In this document: piece after piece, positions 9,538 to 22,365 of the stretch
Layout: each line of letters starts with the position of its first letter
How positions within the stretch are numbered: position 1 is the stretch's first letter
IMG/VR virus record: IMGVR_UViG_3300043448_001330
Location: 1 to 22,365 of that record
DNA length: 22,365 nucleotides
Direction: 5' to 3' (one strand)
From: a virus
Made by a program: the position numbers and the translations under genes
Notes under the pieces: generated by a model
Told to the model about the DNA's origin: nothing
Database searches by the model: none
The model's input: the letters and a program-made list of their open reading frames with translations, nothing else

Positions 9538-11881
9538 TCAAGTTTATAAAGCACCAGCAGTACCAAAGATTAGTAGAAGAAATGTTAAATCTTCGGTATT
9601 TTCTGGTGCAACCACGTCACAATTAACCCTTAAAAAAACATCTTTTAGTTTTGTAAAATCTTTTATAAAACCAAAAGTATCTTCATTATCACCAACTGAA
9701 CTTCAAAAACCCGAAACTGAAATTAGAGAAAGACTAAGTATACCAAGTATATTTGGTCTTGGAAAATCTCTTGAACAAACTAATAAAGTTCTTGCAGATA
9801 TAAAGAATCAATTATCTCTGGACTTTATTAGTAGAATCTTTAATGAAAAGAAGTCTTTAGAAGAAGAAAAGAAAAAAATAACATCAAGAAAAGTTGCAGA
9901 TAAAGAAGCAAAAATAGAAAAAGGTGCTAAGGGAGGAATATTAGGTAAAAGTTTTGAAAAAGTAACAGCACCATTTAGAAGTATTTTTAATAAATTAATA
10001 GATTTCTTTTCTATTATCTTAACTGGTATTTTAGTAAATAATGCGTTTGAATGGTTAAAAAAGGATGAAAATAAAAAGAAATTAACAGAATTTTTTAAAT
10101 TTATAGGAGAGTATTGGCAGGAACTTTTAATTATCTTTGCTGCTTATAAACTAGCAAAGTTAGTTGGTGTTATTTTTGGAATTGGATTAAAACTTAAAAA
10201 ACTTGTTGGTTGGTTTAAAAATAGCTTTGGACCAAAACCTAAACCACCTACTACTACACCTAAACCCACACCTATTCTATCTAATCCAAAATTGAGTAGA
10301 ATGAATGAATCTTATAGTAGATTCATTGCAGGTAAATCTAATATTATTGATAGATTAAGATTGATGAGAAGGGGAATGATAGGTCCCCGTCAATTGTTTA
10401 CTAAAGGTAGTTTTGAAGCATTAAAAGGAACTGTTAAAACTCCTTCCACAACTCCTAAAATTCCTGGTGGTAAAACTTTTGGACGTGGTGGATTACGTGG
10501 TGGATTAGTTGGTACAGTAGCACTGACATTAGCAGAAATGTTTACTCCACAAATTCAAAGTGTGGTTGGTGATTTATATAATAAAATGGGTATTGGAATG
10601 GGTAATAGATCTGATGAAGATTTGAAAAAAGAATATAAAGAAGAATACATTAATTTTACTAAGTATAATGAACAACAAGCAAATCTTCCATTTGGTGGAA
10701 AACAATCTTCTTTTGAAGAATGGGAATTTGGTAGATTGAAGTTATTGCGCGATGAACTAAAAAAGAGAAAAATTAAATTTTCTCAAGGTGGAACTATTCC
10801 TTTTGCATCTTCAAGAGGAATAAATTCTCCTTATGGTGGAGTTCTTAATCGTTCAGGAACTGTCGGTCAAGGTGATCAGGCAGGAATTGATATGGTTCCT
10901 GCAATGACTAAATCTGGGAGACCTGTAAGATTAAATGTTGGTGAAGAAGTTACAATTACTAAAACATCTGAAGCAATGCGTTGGAGACCATTATTAAAAG
11001 ATGTTAATGATAATGGGGCAAGAATGTGGCAGGCATTTACTAACGCGATTAAAAGGCAAGAAGAAGTTAATGTAATAGAAACTGGAAATACTGATAATTT
11101 TTCTGAGATTCTTGGAAACTACGAAAAAATCTTAAAAGATGAAGAGAGAAGACTGAGACAAAAGTATATAAAATCTATTGGCGGAACACCTGCTCCCACT
11201 CCGACTCCTACTCCGACTCCTACTCCTCCTACTCCTACTCCTACTCCTACTCCTACTCCGACTCCTACTCCTCCTACTCCTGCTCCCACTCCTACTCCTA
11301 CTCCGACTCCTACTCCTCCTACTCCTGCTGCCACTCCTTCTGCTGCTAGTTCTTCTACTCCTGCTACTCCTGCCACTCCTGCCACTCCTGCTACTGGAGT
11401 TACTGCGGCACCAATGCCAAATGCTTCTCAATCAGGTGCTCCAGGAATTCCAGGAAGTTCAAATGCCCCTAGAATTGGAGAATCAGTCGGAAACCCACCA
11501 CCACCAAAACCAACTTCCCCCGCCATTCCTGATTCTGGAATTCAACCATTAGATCCAAATAATGTTAAACCATTACAAGTTTTACCCTTTAAAACTGATA
11601 CATCCTTTAATTATAAATCTTATTTTTCAAATTCCGTAAAGTTAGAACCAAATAATTTGCAAAAAGTATTTAAGGATACAAGTAACTTACTGGCATCTTC
11701 AACTTCATCTCTTAATGTGATTAATATGCCACTACCCCCAATAACAGTGGATAATTCAAAATCTGGCAGTGTTCCCGCACCATCTGGTAATCCAACACCT
11801 TTACCAAATATTTCTTCAATTAATCCTTTATATGAAGAAGACATTGCATTGACTGCTGTTACTTTAGGTATATTAGTATGA
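9527..11881 (+). CDS. Tape-measure-like tail protein with Pro-Thr linker
   Basis: This 784-residue protein has a basic N-terminus and a long charged helical part (about 60-155). A strongly hydrophobic stretch follows (159-172, IDFFSIILTGILVNN), with a second hydrophobic helix near 200-230. Residues 419-480 hold SQGGTIPF ... GIDMVPAM ... LNVGEEVTI, the Gly-rich plus V-P-A ... GE-V-x-I pattern often seen near the end of phage tape-measure proteins. A Pro-Thr-Ala repeat fills 554-624, followed by a disordered Pro-rich tail. It starts at GTG 9527, overlapping the gp51-like gene. It shares the GI(L/V)VNN element with the next gene, suggesting paralogy. Role as tape measure (T4 gp29 equivalent) is inferred from position and size. 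Confidence 0.6.
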   Translation: MEINQVYKAPAVPKISRRNVKSSVFSGATTSQLTLKKTSFSFVKSFIKPKVSSLSPTELQKPETEIRERLSIPSIFGLGKSLEQTNKVLADIKNQLSLDFISRIFNEKKSLEEEKKKITSRKVADKEAKIEKGAKGGILGKSFEKVTAPFRSIFNKLIDFFSIILTGILVNNAFEWLKKDENKKKLTEFFKFIGEYWQELLIIFAAYKLAKLVGVIFGIGLKLKKLVGWFKNSFGPKPKPPTTTPKPTPILSNPKLSRMNESYSRFIAGKSNIIDRLRLMRRGMIGPRQLFTKGSFEALKGTVKTPSTTPKIPGGKTFGRGGLRGGLVGTVALTLAEMFTPQIQSVVGDLYNKMGIGMGNRSDEDLKKEYKEEYINFTKYNEQQANLPFGGKQSSFEEWEFGRLKLLRDELKKRKIKFSQGGTIPFASSRGINSPYGGVLNRSGTVGQGDQAGIDMVPAMTKSGRPVRLNVGEEVTITKTSEAMRWRPLLKDVNDNGARMWQAFTNAIKRQEEVNVIETGNTDNFSEILGNYEKILKDEERRLRQKYIKSIGGTPAPTPTPTPTPTPPTPTPTPTPTPTPTPPTPAPTPTPTPTPTPPTPAATPSAASSSTPATPATPATPATGVTAAPMPNASQSGAPGIPGSSNAPRIGESVGNPPPPKPTSPAIPDSGIQPLDPNNVKPLQVLPFKTDTSFNYKSYFSNSVKLEPNNLQKVFKDTSNLLASSTSSLNVINMPLPPITVDNSKSGSVPAPSGNPTPLPNISSINPLYEEDIALTAVTLGILV
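11187..11397 (+). repeat. Pro-Thr codon repeat (CCT ACT CCG)
   Basis: In-frame tandem proline and threonine codons form a low-complexity tract. It includes a 42-base exact direct repeat (11243-11284 and 11288-11329, period 45). The tract is far richer in C and poorer in A than flanking DNA and all on one strand. It should be prone to length change by slippage and encodes an extended, rigid linker. Confidence 0.9.
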
Positions 11882-14517
11882 TTGATACTATTACAAAAAG
11901 ACTAAAATTAAATGTCACAAATATTAGAAGTTCTTTAATTTCTAACCGAAAAAAAATTAAAAAGATAAATTCTGAAAAGAATAGATTTGTTTTGGTGACA
12001 AAAAAACAAGAAGATGTTAAAAAAAAAGAATCTAAAATAGAGTCTTCTGATAAAATATCAGTTATTCAGTCTATAGGCAAAAAATTATTGTCTGGTCCTT
12101 TAAGTTTAATTGATAAATTTAAAGAATTTTTTGGATTAGTGTTATTGGGCATTGTAGTTAATAATTTGCCTACGATTGTTACAAAATTTCAAGAAGTTTT
12201 AAGCAATATACAACTTTTTTTAGATAAAAATCCTTGGATAATCAGTACGATTAAATGGTTTGGAACTAAATTTGCTGAAGGAATTGTTGGTCTTGCAAAA
12301 ATTATTAAATCTGTAAGACCTTATATTGGCGGATCATTTAAATTTGCTCTTGATACACTTAAGACTACTAAAAACCAAATTGGAATGTTAATATCAACTT
12401 TTGATGAGTTAGATTTAAGTTTTGGTGGATTAATTAAAGATTTGAATGTTGATAAGATTCCAGATGTAAATAAAGATCCTGCAAAATATTCTGAATTTGT
12501 AGCTGGCGGTGGCAAAAAAGCTTTAGAACAAAAAGGTCAAACAGTTGATGAGGTTGTAGCGCAGGGACAAAAAAATATTCAAAAATATTATCCAACTCCA
12601 TCTCCAAAACAACCAGAACCACAAGCACAACCACAAGCACAACCTCAACCACAACCGCAATTGATGCCCCCTGGATCTATGTATCCAGAACCACAAAAGT
12701 TTGCAAGGGGTGGAATTATAGGTAATATTCCATCTCAAGAAGGAACTGGACGAGGTGGACCTTCTGATGTTTCTAAAACTGCACCATATTTATTAAAACC
12801 TGGTCCAAAACCAACAACACGTACTCCTTATGCTCGTCCGGGTGGAACTGCTATAGGAAAAAGAACTATAAGAGCAATTAATTATTTTGAAAGATTTAAA
12901 CAAAATGTTTCTAATTCTGAAGAAATATCACAGAAAAATGAGGAAAATAATAATTCATTCTTTAAAATTTTAAAAAAACTGAATGAAATTAAAACTCTCA
13001 GATTAAAGGTTAAAGATGATGAAGGTAATGGCGGAGGAGGAGGCGGAGGAGGCGGCGGCGGTGGTGAAGGAGGTGGAGATTTTACAGGAACTGCCGCCGA
13101 TATTCCGCCAGAAGGTAAAGCACTTTTAGATGCTATTTCTGGTGCAGAAGCACCTGGATATAATTCAAGATATCCAAGTAAAACTTTTAGTAATGGATAT
13201 AAAGATCATCCAAGAATTTCAGAACCAACACCAGATGGACGAACTAGTGATGCTGCTGGAAGATATCAATTTTTATCTTCTACTTGGGATTCTTATAAAC
13301 CAGCAAAGGCATTTACTCCAGAAAATCAAGACATTGCTGCTTGGAAATTAGCAACTGCAACTTATGGATATGGAGAGGCGGGCATAGTTAAAGATCTTCA
13401 AAAAGATCCAATGAAAGTTGCCGATAAGTTAAAAGGACAATGGCCATCCCTTCCTGGAGGATCTCAACCAAATAATGCTACTTCAGGATTTTTAAGTAGA
13501 TATAAAGCTGCTCTAAAAAGATATAAAGAATTAACTACTAAACCAACTGCAGGTGCTTTTAGAAATGTTTTACCTCAAGGAAATCCGCAATTTTCAAGTG
13601 GTTTTCAAACAAATGATAGACCTGGACATAATGGTATAGATATTGGTGTAGATGTGAATGCTCCCGTTGTTGCTCTACAGACTGGAAAAGTTGTTGATTT
13701 TTATAATAGTTTTGGTGGTGTTGGAAATGCAGTTGTAGTTCAACATTCAGATAAAACAAAATTAATTTATGGACATGTTGTAGCATCTGGTGGATTAAAA
13801 GTAGGTGATCCAGTACAAAAAGGACAGGTAATTGCAAAAGTTGTATATTATAGAGGACCAAGTGGAGAAGATTACACACATTTACATTTAGAAAGAGTTG
13901 TAGGTGGAAGGTGGGTTAATCCTATTCCACTTTTGAATTCTGTAGAAAGTAGCAGACAAGAAGATTTAAAAAGAAATGATCCAAGAAGAAAAATAGAACC
14001 TGGTAAATTAGGTCCGGTTTTACCAACCACAACAACACAGTCTATAATGGCACCAACTCCATCGGTTCCATTTGGTAAAGTATTTACATTTGTTGCAAGA
14101 GATGGTAAAAAATATCAAGTTCAATTTGGTAAATTTTTTGAATACCCATTGGGAATTATTCCAGTAGATACATCTAAAACAAACAATAAGTGGTTAATTG
14201 ATGACTACAATAAAGCAGTTGAAGGATATCAAATTAACAAACAAAGTAATGTAAAACCTTCTTCAAATAGTGGAGGAGAAGGTTCTAATGCAGCATCTTT
14301 AATTTCTCCCAAATCTAAAAATTCTGACATTGCTTCTTTAGGTTCTGGTTTGGGTCAACAAAAAGATGTTGTGATAGTAAATAGAACACAACCAATAATC
14401 GTAAAAGATATTCAAACAATAGCAATGGTTACACCAGTACAAACAGATTCGGAAAGTAATAAAGTATCAACAACATCGCGCATTTTTGCTGGCGCTAGAG
14501 ATAGTATAGGAGCATAA
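11878..14517 (+). CDS. Tape-measure-like tail protein with GH104 lysozyme and M23 peptidase domains
   Basis: This 879-residue virion-type protein combines several parts. A hydrophobic element sits at residues 84-96 (FFGLVLLGIVVNN), like the upstream protein. A Pro-Gln tract lies near 240-260, then FARGGIIGN ... GGPSD tape-measure-style residues, and a poly-Gly linker near 384-400. Residues 412-555 resemble the lambda R endolysin (GH104): SGAEAPGY with candidate catalytic Glu424, DHPR at 443-446, AGRYQF at 460-465, and WPSLPGG from 522. Residues about 580-690 are an M23 endopeptidase with HNGID (His584, Asp588), YGHV (His633) and HLHLE (His668, His670), all zinc and catalytic residues intact. 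It would cut glycan and peptide of the cell wall during DNA entry. Its ATG overlaps the previous stop. Confidence 0.82.
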   Translation: MIDTITKRLKLNVTNIRSSLISNRKKIKKINSEKNRFVLVTKKQEDVKKKESKIESSDKISVIQSIGKKLLSGPLSLIDKFKEFFGLVLLGIVVNNLPTIVTKFQEVLSNIQLFLDKNPWIISTIKWFGTKFAEGIVGLAKIIKSVRPYIGGSFKFALDTLKTTKNQIGMLISTFDELDLSFGGLIKDLNVDKIPDVNKDPAKYSEFVAGGGKKALEQKGQTVDEVVAQGQKNIQKYYPTPSPKQPEPQAQPQAQPQPQPQLMPPGSMYPEPQKFARGGIIGNIPSQEGTGRGGPSDVSKTAPYLLKPGPKPTTRTPYARPGGTAIGKRTIRAINYFERFKQNVSNSEEISQKNEENNNSFFKILKKLNEIKTLRLKVKDDEGNGGGGGGGGGGGGEGGGDFTGTAADIPPEGKALLDAISGAEAPGYNSRYPSKTFSNGYKDHPRISEPTPDGRTSDAAGRYQFLSSTWDSYKPAKAFTPENQDIAAWKLATATYGYGEAGIVKDLQKDPMKVADKLKGQWPSLPGGSQPNNATSGFLSRYKAALKRYKELTTKPTAGAFRNVLPQGNPQFSSGFQTNDRPGHNGIDIGVDVNAPVVALQTGKVVDFYNSFGGVGNAVVVQHSDKTKLIYGHVVASGGLKVGDPVQKGQVIAKVVYYRGPSGEDYTHLHLERVVGGRWVNPIPLLNSVESSRQEDLKRNDPRRKIEPGKLGPVLPTTTTQSIMAPTPSVPFGKVFTFVARDGKKYQVQFGKFFEYPLGIIPVDTSKTNNKWLIDDYNKAVEGYQINKQSNVKPSSNSGGEGSNAASLISPKSKNSDIASLGSGLGQQKDVVIVNRTQPIIVKDIQTIAMVTPVQTDSESNKVSTTSRIFAGARDSIGA
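13028..13080 (+). repeat. Poly-glycine linker tract (GGA/GGC)
   Basis: A run of Gly codons, broken by Glu, lies between the N-terminal and lytic parts of the tail lysin. It is G-rich in an AT-rich gene and looks like a flexible tether that keeps the enzymes free from the assembled tail. Slippage could alter its length. Confidence 0.75.
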
Positions 14518-15878: not shown

Positions 15879-16382
15879 ATGTTTAAACCAGGTTTTTTTG
15901 GAAAAAATTCACCAAGATGGTTTATAGGACAAGTAGCGTTAGATCAAACTAACAATAAGACAAATCAAAGTGGGTGGGGAGATAGAGTTAAAGTTCGTAT
16001 CATGGGATATCATCCTTCGGAAGGAACTTTACTTCCGGACAAAGATCTTCCCTGGGCAATTATTCTTAGACCAAGCACTCATGGGTCTCTAAATAGAACA
16101 ACTGCAGCAATTGGTGGTGGTGAATGGGTTGTTGGAATTTTCTTAGATGATGATTTTGAAAAACCCATGATAATTGGAGTTCTTGGAAGATCTGATCCAT
16201 CTTATGATATTAGTGGAAGTCAGATTAAAAGTCAAAAAAGCACGGGATTTCAAAAAACTTTAAATTGGTATGGGTACAATACACCTCAAAGTTATCATTT
16301 AAGAACTTCAGAATCCCCATCAGGTTCTGGATCTAAATCACCAGTTACTCCAACACCTCAAGAGTTTGGAATTAAGATATAA
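15879..16382 (+). CDS. 5: gp5 N-terminal OB-fold baseplate hub/spike protein lacking lysozyme
   Basis: In T4, gp5 has an OB domain that docks on gp27, a lysozyme and a C-terminal beta-helix. This 167-residue protein has only the first part: RWFIGQVALDQ, GDRVKVRIMGYHPSEG, DLPWAIILRPST, EWVVGIFLDDDFEKPMIIGVLG, which are the OB strands of gp5 and the VgrG family. The rest is a short Gln-, Ser- and Pro-rich tail (about residues 115-167). No lysozyme and no beta-helix repeat follow, so this is a reduced gp5. The lytic and spike roles appear in separate genes nearby. It lies directly after gp27, as the partnership predicts. Confidence 0.88.
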   Translation: MFKPGFFGKNSPRWFIGQVALDQTNNKTNQSGWGDRVKVRIMGYHPSEGTLLPDKDLPWAIILRPSTHGSLNRTTAAIGGGEWVVGIFLDDDFEKPMIIGVLGRSDPSYDISGSQIKSQKSTGFQKTLNWYGYNTPQSYHLRTSESPSGSGSKSPVTPTPQEFGIKI

Positions 16383-16397
16383 GAGTATATAAAGAAC

Positions 16398-19300
16398 ATG
16401 GCAAGTTTATCTGACGCTTTTAATTCAGACCAAACATTCTATAAGTTTGATATTACGAGTACAGGAATTTCTACTGGAACTCCTTTTGTTTCAGATTCTA
16501 ATTTATTTTCAACCGCTGCTGGAAAAACATTCCAAGAATTGAATGAAATTGCTTGGCCTATGGCAGATCCTTGTGGACAAGGAAACATAGCCAATATTAA
16601 CAGAATTTTATTAAACTTTTTTACCGTTTTAAAAGGAGTCAAAAAATATGCACAAAAATATATTAATGGATCTATAAATGCGATTAAAAATTTAACCGGA
16701 GAAATACAAGCAACTATACAAGGAATTGCTGGAGAATTAAAAACAATAGTTCAAAGAGTTAGGGAGTGGATTCTAAAAAAAGTAAGAGCTGGAATTGAAG
16801 ACCTTTTGCAAAAGGTCTTGCCACCTTTAATGAAACAAATCAAAAGTGGTCTTTTGAAAGTGATCGTTGATCAACTCTTTTGTAAATTAGGAGATATTAT
16901 TAAAAGTCTTGCTACATTAGTCGCTGATTTCTTATATTCTTTAGTTGGTCAAATTATAAATGCTCCTTTATGTGCTGCTGAGAATTTTACTAATGCACTT
17001 TTGAACAAATTAATGAATGATATTGATCAAGCTATTCAACCAATTTTGAATCAAATGAATAGTGCGTTGGGTGGAGCAACTAAAGTTTTAAGCTCAGTTT
17101 ACGAAATAATTGATTTTGTTCTTGGATTTGAAGGATTCTTGTGCGACAAACCAGATTGCCCAGAAGTTAAACAGTTAAGAACTTCTCCATGGGCAGGACC
17201 TCAAAATGGAACCGATGACAACTGGTCTAAATTTTCCTTTGCAACAGATGCAACTAAAACTGTAAAGGGGTGGATGGATGATTTCTTTGGTCCTAGTAGT
17301 TCTGGTTACATTTCACCTGGAGGATGTTATAGTGGGACATTTCAATGCGGAGCTCCTCAAGTTCAAATTTTTGGTGGTGGAGGGTCTGGAGCAGTTGCAA
17401 CAGCAGTAGTTAATAATATTGGACAAGTAATAGGAGTAAACTTAATATTTGGTGGATCAGGATATACATCTCCACCTTTTGTATCGATTGTGGATCCTGC
17501 AGGATGTGGAAAAAATGCATCTGCTTATGCAACACTTTGTTCAAATTCCTCTTCTGTATGTAAGATAAGTATAGTTACACCAGGTTGTTGTTTTTCGTCA
17601 TTTCCAATAAGTCCTCCACTTATTAAATCATTTACAGGATCTCCAGATCCCATAGACATAAACAATAAAATAACTTTATCTTGGGATGTCTCCGATGCTA
17701 CTAATGTTTCTCTATATGGATATCCGTCAGCATCTTCACTTCCATTAAAAGGAACTTTTGATTACACAATAACTTCTAAAGATGTTTCTTTTCCATCTGG
17801 AAAACAAGAGACTCAAATGCCCTTTACTTTGATTGTAGATAAAGTTTCCCCATCTTATGCTCCATTATCCGATAAAAGAACTATAAATGTAACTGTCAAG
17901 GATCCTTCTCTTGCTCTTGCTCCATCTGCCGCTCCTGCAGTTGCTACTGCAAAAATAGATTCGGTTAAAATAAATGGTAATAAAGTTAATGATGGTGATG
18001 TTGTTGTTCTTTCTGAAGGACAACTTGTACAGATTGAATGGGAAACTACAGATGCCGTTACAGTCTATACTGAAGAACCAGAGGTTACAAAGCCAGAATT
18101 TGAAGGGCAGAAAGTGACTTCAAATTCTTTAGATGGTAATCTATCATTTATTACTCCAAAACCAGCAGATTTTGATCCACTTTCATCATATACAAAAAAT
18201 TTAAAAACAAATATTGCTGGATTAAAGTATCGTGAAAATGTTTTTAATCTTATTGCTGTACCAGCATCTTCTGCATCAAAAAGTACTAAATTTAGCGTTA
18301 CACTCCAATTAACAGAACCTACTGCTGCTGCAGCGCCAGCCGCTGCATTACCAGCCGCTGCAGCAGCGGGACCAGCAGCTTCTACATATGTAATAATACC
18401 TTCTTTACTTGCTGGTGATGAAGGAAAAATTATTAATTTTGATGTATCAACAACCAATGTTCTGGACGGAACTGTCCTATATTATACAACTATAGGAACT
18501 GTTTCTGATGTTGATTTTACTGATAAAAAATTGACTGATAGTTTTGTAATAAATTCAAATAAGGGTAGTTTTTCTAGAGCTCTGCAAACAGACAGTCTTA
18601 CCGAAGGTGTAGAAAATTTTGCCATTGAAATTAGAATAGGAAGTTCTACTGGTCCCATAGTTGTAACTTCGGCATCTATAAATGTAAATGATACTTCGAT
18701 TGCAGTTGCAGCTGCTCCAGCAGCTGTTGCTCCAGCACTAATTCCACTAACTATTACTTTAAATAGTACTTCTTTTGTAAATAATTCTCCAATTTCAACT
18801 CCATATCGTTATAATTTATATACAGGAAAAGGATCTAATATAAGTCCTAAACTAGACTGGGTTGCTGGTGGTGATAAAACATCTGTTGCAAGTTGGAGAT
18901 TATTATGTATTGATAGTACTTTAGATGCTTCAGGAAAACCTCTTAATTTTATTCATTGGTCTGTTGACAATATTGATCCTTCTTTTGTGTCAATTCCCGA
19001 AAATGGAGGATGGCCATCTGGAGTAGTTATTAATAAAACTGGATGGGATCCAGATCCTGTTAATCTAAATGGGTGGGGGGGACCTGCTCCACCGGATGGA
19101 GAAACACATACTTATGAAATTTATATTGGGGCATATGATAAAGCTGGAAAACTTATTACAACATCAAATGTTCTTAGATTCATTGCATCAAGTCCTGTAG
19201 TTTCTCCTGCTGCTGCTGGTCCTGCTGCTGGTCCTGCTGCCGCCGTTGGTCCTGCTGCTGCTGGTCCTGCTGCTGGTCCTGCTGCCGCCGTTGGTCCTGC

Positions 19301-19739
19301 TGCTGCTGGTCCTGCTGCTGCTGGTCCTGCTGCCGCCGTTGGTCCTGCTGCTGCTGCTGGTCCTGCTGCCGCCGTTGGTCCTGCTGCTGCTGGCCCTGCT
19401 GCTGCTGGTCCTGCAATTGCTAAACTTGCATCTATTGCAGTTCTTAGTACTGGAAGTGGATATAAATCAACTGATACTGTCACTTCTAGTTGTGGATTTG
19501 GATATGAATTTAAATTAGTATTGACACCTTCTGGTGGAATTGTTTCGATTGATATTTTAAATTCTGGATATGGATTTACATGTCTTCCTGAACTTGAAAT
19601 AAATAGTGATACTGGAGTAGGAGCAAAATTTAGAGTTGATTTAGACTTCTTACCACTAGATCAATTTTTAGAAGAAAATAAACTAAAAGAAATTGATCAG
19701 GATCAAATTGTTCAAATAATAGATTGTATTACTAAGTAA
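16398..19739 (+). CDS. Large multidomain virion structural protein with PEBP-like domain
   Basis: This 1113-residue protein has many domains. Residues 1-250 are helical. Near 310-385 is a GGSGYTSPPFVSI-type Gly-rich repeat. Two Ig-like domains follow (about 406-512 and 519-640). About 665-770 has Calx-beta-like features (DGTVLYYTTIG, DF, EGVENFAIEI). About 782-930 resembles the PEBP (YbhB/RKIP) family: GSNISPKLDW, CIDST (Asp839), IHW (His853), GGPAPPDGETHTY with His904. Then comes a Gly-Pro-Ala repeat (936-1007) and two more GSGY-type units. Ala-Pro linkers separate the domains. Position after gp5 suggests a baseplate or tail-tip part. PEBP fold could bind a small ligand or surface group. Overall role is unknown. 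Confidence 0.75.
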   Translation: MASLSDAFNSDQTFYKFDITSTGISTGTPFVSDSNLFSTAAGKTFQELNEIAWPMADPCGQGNIANINRILLNFFTVLKGVKKYAQKYINGSINAIKNLTGEIQATIQGIAGELKTIVQRVREWILKKVRAGIEDLLQKVLPPLMKQIKSGLLKVIVDQLFCKLGDIIKSLATLVADFLYSLVGQIINAPLCAAENFTNALLNKLMNDIDQAIQPILNQMNSALGGATKVLSSVYEIIDFVLGFEGFLCDKPDCPEVKQLRTSPWAGPQNGTDDNWSKFSFATDATKTVKGWMDDFFGPSSSGYISPGGCYSGTFQCGAPQVQIFGGGGSGAVATAVVNNIGQVIGVNLIFGGSGYTSPPFVSIVDPAGCGKNASAYATLCSNSSSVCKISIVTPGCCFSSFPISPPLIKSFTGSPDPIDINNKITLSWDVSDATNVSLYGYPSASSLPLKGTFDYTITSKDVSFPSGKQETQMPFTLIVDKVSPSYAPLSDKRTINVTVKDPSLALAPSAAPAVATAKIDSVKINGNKVNDGDVVVLSEGQLVQIEWETTDAVTVYTEEPEVTKPEFEGQKVTSNSLDGNLSFITPKPADFDPLSSYTKNLKTNIAGLKYRENVFNLIAVPASSASKSTKFSVTLQLTEPTAAAAPAAALPAAAAAGPAASTYVIIPSLLAGDEGKIINFDVSTTNVLDGTVLYYTTIGTVSDVDFTDKKLTDSFVINSNKGSFSRALQTDSLTEGVENFAIEIRIGSSTGPIVVTSASINVNDTSIAVAAAPAAVAPALIPLTITLNSTSFVNNSPISTPYRYNLYTGKGSNISPKLDWVAGGDKTSVASWRLLCIDSTLDASGKPLNFIHWSVDNIDPSFVSIPENGGWPSGVVINKTGWDPDPVNLNGWGGPAPPDGETHTYEIYIGAYDKAGKLITTSNVLRFIASSPVVSPAAAGPAAGPAAAVGPAAAGPAAGPAAAVGPAAAGPAAAGPAAAVGPAAAAGPAAAVGPAAAGPAAAGPAIAKLASIAVLSTGSGYKSTDTVTSSCGFGYEFKLVLTPSGGIVSIDILNSGYGFTCLPELEINSDTGVGAKFRVDLDFLPLDQFLEENKLKEIDQDQIVQIIDCITK
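19203..19422 (+). repeat. Gly-Pro-Ala codon repeat (GGT CCT GCT GCC GCC GTT units)
   Basis: A 220-base GC-rich tandem tract encodes repeated G-P-A-A-A and G-P-A-A-A-V. Four exact copies of the 18-base unit begin at 19230, 19275, 19323 and 19359, separated by shorter GGT CCT GCT GCT units. All variants stay in frame (lengths are multiples of three). It forms an Ala-Pro linker before the C-terminal domains and should vary in copy number between isolates. Confidence 0.92.
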
Positions 19740-20335
19740 TGGCAAGACAAGCACCAGACATAACAGTTGCAAATAATTCACATTGTTTTATTCACTGTGG
19801 ACCTGTTGGACCTGAATCTGAAGATGAAGGTAGAGATTTAACTATTATTACTTCCGCAAATAATCATGTAGTCTATGCAAAAAACGGAAGTAAAGTTGAA
19901 CACATTCAAGGTGCCAGTTATGAAACATGTGGGCATGAAATAGATCCCCAACAAAAAGAAGCTGTTGGAAAAGCTATTTGCCTTAAAAATGGAGATTTAG
20001 TTTTAAATGCTGAAAGGGGAAACATACGCTTAAAAGCAAAAAATATATACTTTGAAACGAAAGGTGATAAGGGTGAAGGTAATTTTTTAGTTAGTTCAAA
20101 TGGTTATATTGTCCTTGCCTCAACTGAAGAAGTTAGATTAGCTGGATCAAAAATTTGTATAAATGGAACGGCAGGAATTAATGTTGTAAGCGGAAATTTT
20201 ATTAATATGTCTGGTGATATAAACAAATTTGGTCCAGTTAGTGCATTATCAACTATACAAAGTCTTCTTGCTGGTAATTGGGGAAGTTTAATTGAAGGAA
20301 TGACAAATTCTTGCGGAAAAACTGGAGTGGCGTAA
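19739..20335 (+). CDS. Beta-helix spike protein (gp5 C-terminal-like)
   Basis: This 198-residue protein has a central run of short alternating strands: ICLKNGDLVLNAERGNIRLKAKNIYFETKG, then VSSNGYIVLAS, EVRLAGSKICINGTAGINVVSGNFINMSGDI. This G-x-(I/V)-x-(L/I)-x-A rhythm is that of the triple-stranded beta-helix of T4 gp5 and VgrG spikes. No lysozyme or OB domain is present. An N-terminal segment with HCFIHCGP and ETCGHE carries four Cys and four His near the N-terminus that might bind metal, and the C-terminal tail is polar. Because the gp5 OB protein lacks this part, this gene probably supplies the spike shaft as a separate subunit. TAATG overlap with the previous gene. Confidence 0.72.
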   Translation: MARQAPDITVANNSHCFIHCGPVGPESEDEGRDLTIITSANNHVVYAKNGSKVEHIQGASYETCGHEIDPQQKEAVGKAICLKNGDLVLNAERGNIRLKAKNIYFETKGDKGEGNFLVSSNGYIVLASTEEVRLAGSKICINGTAGINVVSGNFINMSGDINKFGPVSALSTIQSLLAGNWGSLIEGMTNSCGKTGVA

Positions 20336-20336
20336 A

Positions 20337-21227
20337 ATGGCATATACAGATAAAGATACATTTGGCATAATAGAAGGATTAAATGCTCAATTTGGAGCTG
20401 CTGTAAATATCCCGACAAATTTTTTTAAAAGTGGAATAGCAAACATCTATGAAGGATATTTTGGATCTGGGACTGGATTAGATTTTGCATCTTTAAATGT
20501 TGGTCCAAATCCAACTACTCCATTAAGTATGAATTTAAATGGACTTTCAAAATACACTGGGTTACATACTCAAGTGGGAGGTCTTGTTGTTAATGGATAT
20601 GTTGATGTAAAAGGTGGATCTTATCGTTGTACTAGTGCATCAACTTCATTTAAAAGTAAAAATTTTTCAGTATCCTCAGCGGGAAATAATTCAATTACTT
20701 CAGCTAAAAGAAATAAACTTGTAGCTCCGACCACAACTATTGAAAGTAAAATAACCTCTATAAGAGGAATGGTTTTTGTTGATGGTTTAGGAAATTTAGC
20801 TGCTACGGTAAATTCTAAAAAAGGATTTGATATTCCTCATCCAAATAAACCAAATTGTCGCCTAAGACATATTTGCGTAGAAGGACCAGAATCTGCAGTT
20901 TATGTGAGAGGAAAATTGGTAAATAATAATATTATTGAACTTCCAGATTATTGGAATGGTCTTATTGATCCAGAAACAATTACGATTAATCTTACTCAGA
21001 TTGGACATAGTCAAGACTTAATTGTTGAAAAAATAGAATGGGGTAAAAAAATTATCATTAAATCTGGAAACGGAACAAGTATTAATTGTTATTATCAAGT
21101 TTGGGCAGATCGTTTAGGTGAAAAATTAATTGTTGAATATGAAGGAATGACTCCAGATGACTATCCAGGTAATAATTCGGAATATTCAATAGCTGGTTGG
21201 GATTACGATAAAAGATCGCAAAAATGA
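20337..21227 (+). CDS. Fibre/baseplate-type structural protein with conserved C-terminal domain
   Basis: This 296-residue protein has a Gly-, Ser- and Asn-rich beta N-terminal half (about 1-150). After [10 protein letters not shown] it has a compact C-terminal domain: [45 protein letters not shown], then strands ending KLIVEYEG. I recall the HPxK...RLRHxCxEGPE...Y.RG pattern from several cyanophage structural and fibre proteins; its function is unproven. No enzyme motif is seen. It lies between the spike and the adhesin gene, overlapping the latter by ATGA, so it may connect or assemble host-recognition parts. Exact role is not established. Confidence 0.65.
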
Positions 21228-22365
21228 CAAAAATCAAACTCTACTACGCAGATAAACCACCCGAAGATTTAGTAGATCTTGAGGTTCAAAATTTAGTCGT
21301 TACTGGGCAGTTAGGTGGCAGCGGTCTTACTATCAATAACGGAATTTTAAGTGGTGGTCATATCATATTACGATATGCAGACCAAGCTGATTGGATTTTA
21401 GAAAATCCTACTTTACTTGAAGGTGAAGTTGGTCTTGAAGTTGATACGAGTAGATTAAAAATTGGAAATGGAACTAGTGATTGGCTCTCTTTACCATATA
21501 TTGGTGGTGGTGGATCTCAAGGTATTCAAGGAACAATAAGTAATTTTCAGGGAACACAAGGTCCATCAAGTAATTTCCAAGGAACACAGGGAAGACAAGG
21601 AACTCAAGGTATAACAGGGCAAGGTGTTCAAGGTGTACAAGGTTTTTTAAGTAATTTTCAAGGAACTCAAGGATCACAGGGATCTCAAGGTATACAAGGA
21701 AGACAAGGATCGCAAGGATCGCAAGGTCTTCAAGGTCTTCAAGGACAAATAAGTAATTTTCAAGGATCTCAAGGAATTCAAGGAAATCAAGGATTTCAAG
21801 GAACTCAAGGATTTCAAGGTTCTCAGGCATCTCAAGGAACTCAAGGAAGGCAAGGAATTCAGGGATCACTTGGAATTCAAGGTAATCAAGGCGTTCAAGG
21901 TGTCCAAGCATCACAAGGTGTTCAAGGTGTTCAATCAACACAAGGTAATCAGGGTGTTCAAGCAACACAAGGTAATCAAGGTGTTCAAGGTGTTCAAGCA
22001 ACACAGGGAAATCAAGGTGTTCAGGGTAGACAGGGAACTCAAGGATTAAGTAACCAAGGAATTCAAGGAACTTTAAGTAATTTCCAAGGAACACAAGGTC
22101 CGATAAGCAATTTTCAAGGTCTTCAGGGTAGTCAAGCAACACAAGGAATTCAAGGAAGACAAGGTCTTCAAGGAACAGGATCTCAAGGTGTTCAAGGAAA
22201 ACAGGGTATTCAAGGAACAATAAGTAACTTCCAAGGAACACAAGGACTGCAAGGATCTCAAGCAACTCAAGGAAGACAGGGACTTCAAGGCGTTGGTTCT
22301 CAAGGTAATCAAGGTGTTCAATCAACGCAAGGAACTCAGGGACGCCAAGGAATTCAAGGTTCTCA
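21224..22365 (+). CDS. Collagen-like tail adhesin with Mtd-type N-terminal domain (right-end partial)
   Basis: The reading frame is open from ATG 21224 to the window end (380 codons, no stop), so the gene is incomplete. Residues 1-90 hold [20 protein letters not shown] followed by [16 protein letters not shown]. This is the short N-terminal domain seen at the base of phage receptor-binding proteins such as Mtd. After GGGG the rest is a Gly-X-Gln collagen-like repeat ([15 protein letters not shown]), with seven SNFQ interruptions and several triplets in which Gly is replaced by Ala or Ser (ASQ, ATQ, STQ). It should form a long trimeric fibre ending in a receptor-binding tip beyond the window. 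Starts within the previous stop. Confidence 0.85.
21515..22365 (+). repeat. Gly-X-Gln collagen repeat with SNFQ interruptions
   Basis: About 280 codons of G-X-Q triplets (GGN NNN CAA/CAG), a 9-base period at DNA level. SNFQ interruptions begin at 21539, 21569, 21650, 21752, 22076, 22106 and 22223. A shortened SNQ version lies at 22049. Each SNFQ adds one residue and shifts the triplet phase. Near-identical pieces (AAGTAATTTTCAAGG) recur, making the tract recombination-prone. The tract continues past the window. Confidence 0.9.

Follow-up and report, generated by a model that had tools for sequence, protein, structure and literature searches.

A PEBP-family domain in the split gp5 hub of a cyanophage-like virus, with relatives in other phage tail proteins

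The PEBP family includes bacterial YbhB, human RKIP and plant florigen. Why should a tail protein of a T4-like phage contain a domain of this family, and what might the domain do there? The question is raised by the metagenomic virus record IMGVR_UViG_3300043448_001330, the whole of which is the 22,365-nucleotide stretch analysed here (the window). A sequence-only reading had pointed to the motif order of the family inside a 1,113-residue protein, and we found these motifs in residues 782-931 (18741-19190), in the order described: GSNISPKLDW, CIDST, HW and GGPAPPDGETHTY.

Profile searches identified the same region. Pfam PF01161 matches residues 808-916 with an E-value of 4.4e-10 and 40.5 bits, against a curated cut-off of 24, and the 150-amino-acid stretch alone matches this profile at E 1.7e-11. 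NCBIfam TIGR00481 (YbhB/YbcL) was matched at E 1.9e-9, with a score of 37.4 bits that lies under its curated cut-off of 57.75. A phmmer search of the PDB returned Rv2140c (4beg) and YbhB (1vi3, 1fjj) at E 1-3e-5, and a profile of 24 domains headed by that of the window, which takes in two canonical free PEBPs from viral contigs, found YbcL at E 4e-18 and YbhB at about 1e-15. An AlphaFold2 model of residues 778-933, built on the 24-domain alignment, had a mean pLDDT of 88 and a pTM of 0.83. When this model was compared with the PDB using Foldseek, the top eleven matches were all PEBP proteins; YbhB led (E 6.6e-9, TM 0.74), and the best matches, to YbhB (1vi3/1fjj), Rv2140c (4beg) and YbcL (1fux), had E-values of 7e-9 to 2e-8 and TM values of 0.72-0.74. 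The fold is thus YbhB-like, as the sequence-only reading had led us to expect, and not a plain Ig-like sandwich. The domain is a genuine member of the PF01161 superfamily rather than a chance match.

The domain shares with YbhB, YbcL and Rv2140c its fold, its motif order, the cavity-rim residues D71, H87 and H118 and the GP-PP-G-H-Y loop. However, those are free proteins, as are the lambda-type YbcL and transduced YbhB records, whereas the form in the window is one domain of a 1,113-residue phage tail protein, has Thr at D73 and R119, and is only about 20% identical overall. Residues 789-914 also match phrog_5139, which covers the same domain but is a short family (161 positions) without an assigned function.

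The split hub protein and its variable slot

The sequence-only reading had placed the protein in a T4-like baseplate. This was right and can be put more exactly: as judged from homology and gene order, gp5, the baseplate hub, is naturally split here, and this protein forms its middle part. Its features and those of the adjoining open reading frames (ORFs) are listed here; L-numbers denote comparison contigs, which are fragments without host records.

15879..16382, plus strand: OB-fold N-terminal part of gp5 as its own ORF, 167 amino acids (phrog_1922 positions 11-161, E 1.3e-33; 39% identity to the S-SRM01 gp5 N-terminus)
16398..19739, plus strand: central hub protein with the PEBP domain, 1,113 amino acids (phrog_1922 positions 212-645, E 1.3e-57; aligns to about residues 202-631 of S-SRM01 gp5)
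16398..17600, plus strand: conserved helical hub region and GSGY/GGGGSGA repeat (82-84% identity to L002, 56% to L003)
17601..17912, plus strand: Ig-like domain 1 (beta strands, local pLDDT about 65-90; no Pfam hit)
17949..18317, plus strand: probable second Ig-like domain (strand pattern only, low-confidence model)
18378..18713, plus strand: Calx-beta-like domain (a repeat of the virion-type protein encoded by L011 is 48% identical)
18729..19196, plus strand: PEBP (YbhB/RKIP-type) domain, residues 778-933 (PF01161, AlphaFold2, Foldseek; under constraint relative to L002, see below)
19197..19420, plus strand: Ala/Pro/Gly/Val repeat linker behind the PEBP domain (tandem repeats, period 15-48)
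19422..19739, plus strand: conserved C-terminal GSGY-type repeat of the hub protein (kept in the window, L002 and L003)
19739..20335, plus strand: separate ORF of 198 amino acids, probably the beta-helix-like spike of the gp5 C-terminus (corresponds in place and size to the gene that follows gp5 in cyanophages; sequence similarity weak, E 0.015)

The OB and central ORFs both align to the single 672-amino-acid gp5 of Synechococcus phage S-SRM01, so gp5 is split in the window. The split is also present in L002, L003-L005 and L071, which makes a sequencing error unlikely. In the window the two ORFs (within 15879-20335) share a reading frame and are separated by a stop. The matched family, phrog_1922, is annotated as 'baseplate hub subunit and tail lysozyme'. 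Like cyanophage gp5 proteins of this family (S-SRM01, S-CAM9, S-SSM7), the window version has the OB part, the helical region, the C-terminal GSGY repeat and the gene order; unlike them, it does not hold the OB part and the helical region in one polypeptide, and Ig-like, Calx-like and PEBP domains have been added. The Calx-like label comes from similarity to the L011 repeat, since AlphaFold2, applied to residues 402-775, gave a poor model of everything after Ig-like domain 1; the L011 protein itself matched Calx-beta below the cut-off. A scan of isolate gp5 proteins found Big_5 Ig-like domains in two of them and no PEBP domain in any.

The gene order of the window is that of S-SRM01 (gp32, gp53, tail tube, M23 peptidase, tail protein, gp5), and its gp32-like protein is 79% identical to S-SRM01 gp32. 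By these relationships the phage is T4-like and Kyanoviridae-like, or cyanophage-like, and its host is therefore probably a cyanobacterium.

Within this hub lineage, the PEBP domain occupies a variable slot between Ala/Pro-rich linkers, the rear one of which is a tandem repeat. The central protein of L002, an independent contig, is 77% identical to that of the window and has the same architecture with the PEBP domain. In L003 (46% identical, with the same match obtained for L004 and L005) and in L071 the domain is missing, and low-complexity or repeat sequence stands in its place; among the distinct hub proteins of the split type, it is present in two and absent from two. No PF01161 match was found in 14 cyanophage isolate records. 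Between the window and L002, omega calculated with our own Nei-Gojobori script was approximately 0.27 for the PEBP domain and 0.14 for the helical hub, and the domain is thus under purifying selection. L011 encodes a ribonucleotide reductase, the virion-type protein and a small free-standing PEBP that is roughly 50% identical to the window domain.

Cavity residues and recurrence in phage tails

Five residues are nearly invariant in PEBP proteins: D71, H87 and H118 on the cavity rim, and a D73-R119 salt bridge beside the cavity (PMC8793217). The three rim residues are present in the window:

18912..18914, plus strand: Asp839 (FT D71), cavity-rim Asp
18954..18956, plus strand: His853 (FT H87), cavity-rim His
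19107..19109, plus strand: His904 (FT H118), cavity-rim His

They are also kept in L002, the nearest relative, and in L011. The 'shoulder' pair D73/R119 is replaced by Thr841 and Thr905, which leaves three of the five residues intact and marks the domain as a derived branch of the superfamily rather than a canonical YbhB. We aligned 22 tail-type domains (the window, L002, L011 and 19 of collar or nozzle type) and found D71 kept in 20, H87 in 11, D73 in one and R119 in none. Because the pattern used to collect the collar set already specified H118, GP, PP and Tyr, their presence in that set carries no independent weight; D71 was not required by the searches. Nine canonical PEBPs retained all five residues, except for a His at R119 in YbcL. 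The expectation that relatives would conserve the pocket was therefore borne out for all three rim residues in L002 and not for distant tail homologues, in which the equivalent of His853 is often lost. The signature common to the tail modules is loss of the Asp-Arg pair with the rim Asp mostly kept. Multiple replacements at the five sites have been described only in mitochondrial ribosomal L35/L38 and plant PYBHB (PMC8793217), and the phage tail modules look like a third such group.

A search of viral contigs for the pattern YxGPxPPxGxxHxY returned 36 stretches. By inspection, 30 lay in long tail-type open frames and four were free-standing PEBPs (three of them the same protein); the other two, in L023 and L045, were not PEBPs. 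A second search added two contigs, bringing the number of viral contigs with tail-type PEBP domains to 32, and the PF01161 cut-off was exceeded in all 13 of those that were searched with this profile. Collar or short-tail-fibre proteins of the cyanophage type carry such domains: in the L014 collar protein, a PEBP domain lies within a stretch of about 390 residues where the S-RSM4 orthologue has about 20. One tail protein (L035:3681-5774, minus strand) combines laminin-G-type lectin, collar-like and PEBP domains. A T7-like nozzle protein (L015:2-2641, minus strand; PF25675, E 5e-141) has a PBP match at E 9e-10 on its C-terminal side, and its gene is located beside tail and major head genes on a podovirus-type contig. 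The PEBP domain has thus been added to a range of tail proteins in both T4-like and T7-like phages, much as Ig-like, Big_5 and laminin-G lectin domains are mobile add-ons in variable slots of tail proteins. In G011, the record of L036, there is a second PEBP match (17032-17358, minus strand) at a neighbouring open frame of 3,186 amino acids.

In a phylogenetic tree, the tail modules were set apart from the free PEBPs used (99/99), and the window, L002 and L011 grouped weakly (87/64). The tree program warned of long branches; for this reason we do not claim a single origin of the tail modules, which the tree does not prove. Searches by tblastn of the phage collection with the window domain returned nothing, as did one with a collar-type domain; those with the L011 domain or another collar-type domain returned almost only free lambda-type YbcL/YbhB proteins. 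A search for close relatives with the single window domain also found nothing. The PEBPs recovered by a genome scan were ordinary ones; none of the bacterial proteins had this architecture, and so no cellular donor was identified. Searches of the open-licence literature brought up no previous description of a PEBP domain in a phage tail, which is weak evidence of novelty; one review names giant viruses as PEBP carriers and does not contain the word 'phage' (PMC8793217).

A possible attachment role

On balance, we favour a reading in which the PEBP domain is an accessory module that, where the tail faces the cell, provides an additional point of attachment by binding a polar or anionic group. 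The gp5-type hub of T4 is the part of the baseplate that bears the spike that meets the cell envelope. The domain is tethered to the corresponding hub protein by the Ala/Pro-rich linkers, and its polar cavity (Asp839, His853, His904 and Gly895-Pro896) would bind a small polar or anionic group, for example on an envelope component of the host that bears phosphate or sugar; a polar or anionic host-envelope group is most likely as the class of ligand. That the domain is exposed on the virion, binds a ligand and serves in attachment is suggested by its repeated occurrence in tail proteins, by the linkers and by the conservation of the rim residues. A contact with the host surface, as the sequence-only reading had proposed, is favoured by the presence of such domains in several proteins of the tail tip. 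Support was lacking for the ligand named in that reading, a lipid or phosphorylated headgroup, as only three of the five near-invariant residues are intact. We would give about an even chance to the broader proposal of a phage-specific PEBP branch that has lost the near-invariant Asp-Arg pair and whose members, as attachment modules that bind a ligand, have moved between the tail-tip proteins of T4-like and T7-like phages.

Several points weigh against an attachment role. Two of the five family signature residues are lost in the window, and the equivalent of His853 is lost in 11 of the 19 collar or nozzle-type homologues, so the cavity may not bind canonical PEBP ligands. Moreover, the location in the hub could bury the domain or turn it to the periplasm rather than the outer surface.

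The best-surviving alternative, which we regard as possible although less probable, is that the PEBP fold is structural filler, a stable beta-rich spacer or decoration like the Ig-like domains, with a cavity that binds nothing. The domain does adjoin Ig-like and Calx-like domains, and the loss of D73 and R119 in nearly all tail modules and of H87 in half suggests that some members of the group are under less constraint to keep a working cavity. On the other side, the rim Asp is retained almost throughout without having been selected for by the searches, and the window, L002 and L011 retain the complete rim.

Binding of phosphatidylethanolamine (PE) or a lipid-phosphate headgroup, the suggestion made from the sequence alone, is improbable. 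In cyanobacteria, to which the probable host belongs, PE is not normally expected among the membrane lipids. The name of the family and some reported phospholipid interactions of eukaryotic members speak for such a ligand, but the same 2022 review argues that the cavity is ill-suited to lipids (PMC8793217), and PE is reported to be missing from Synechocystis inner membranes (PMC3916417), which together make it an unlikely ligand.

Slightly less probable still is an enzyme or inhibitor that is delivered with the spike and has small molecules or envelope enzymes of the host periplasm as its targets. In T4, the equivalent part of the gp5 hub holds a lysozyme. Although PEBP proteins have been argued to be possible enzymes (PMC8793217), the D73-R119 pair is lost here, H87 is lost in many homologues, and a separate M23 peptidase ORF is already present at 11878-14517. 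Finally, an artefact of chimeric assembly or chance motif matching, conceivable for a single metagenomic record of 22 kb, is scarcely credible given the independent L002 contig, the strong E-values and a GC content of 0.342 in the domain and 0.341 in the window.

Domains of this kind are found again in tail proteins that face the cell in further uncultivated phages. This suggests an attachment module that can be mixed and matched and had so far gone unremarked; it would extend the known set of phage attachment domains. The biochemical role of PEBP/FT/RKIP/YbhB proteins is still disputed, and proteins that retain the fold and some of the cavity yet, by context, work in phage tails would show independently what the cavity can bind. 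Such proteins could be sought by a PF01161 match without D73/R119, fused to tail domains.

Neighbouring genes

Two further ORFs of the window were noted:

11878-14517: ORF of 879 amino acids next to the hub genes, encoding an M23 peptidase domain
21224-22363: tail-fibre-type ORF with collagen-like QGTQG repeats, extending past the window end

The proteins related to the M23 ORF in L002 and L071 differ in their middle part. The S-SRM01 tail-fibre cluster includes an annotated tryptophan halogenase (L048:24681-26138), and a protein that resembles it by eye (L074:105-1592) adjoins a Calx-like gene.
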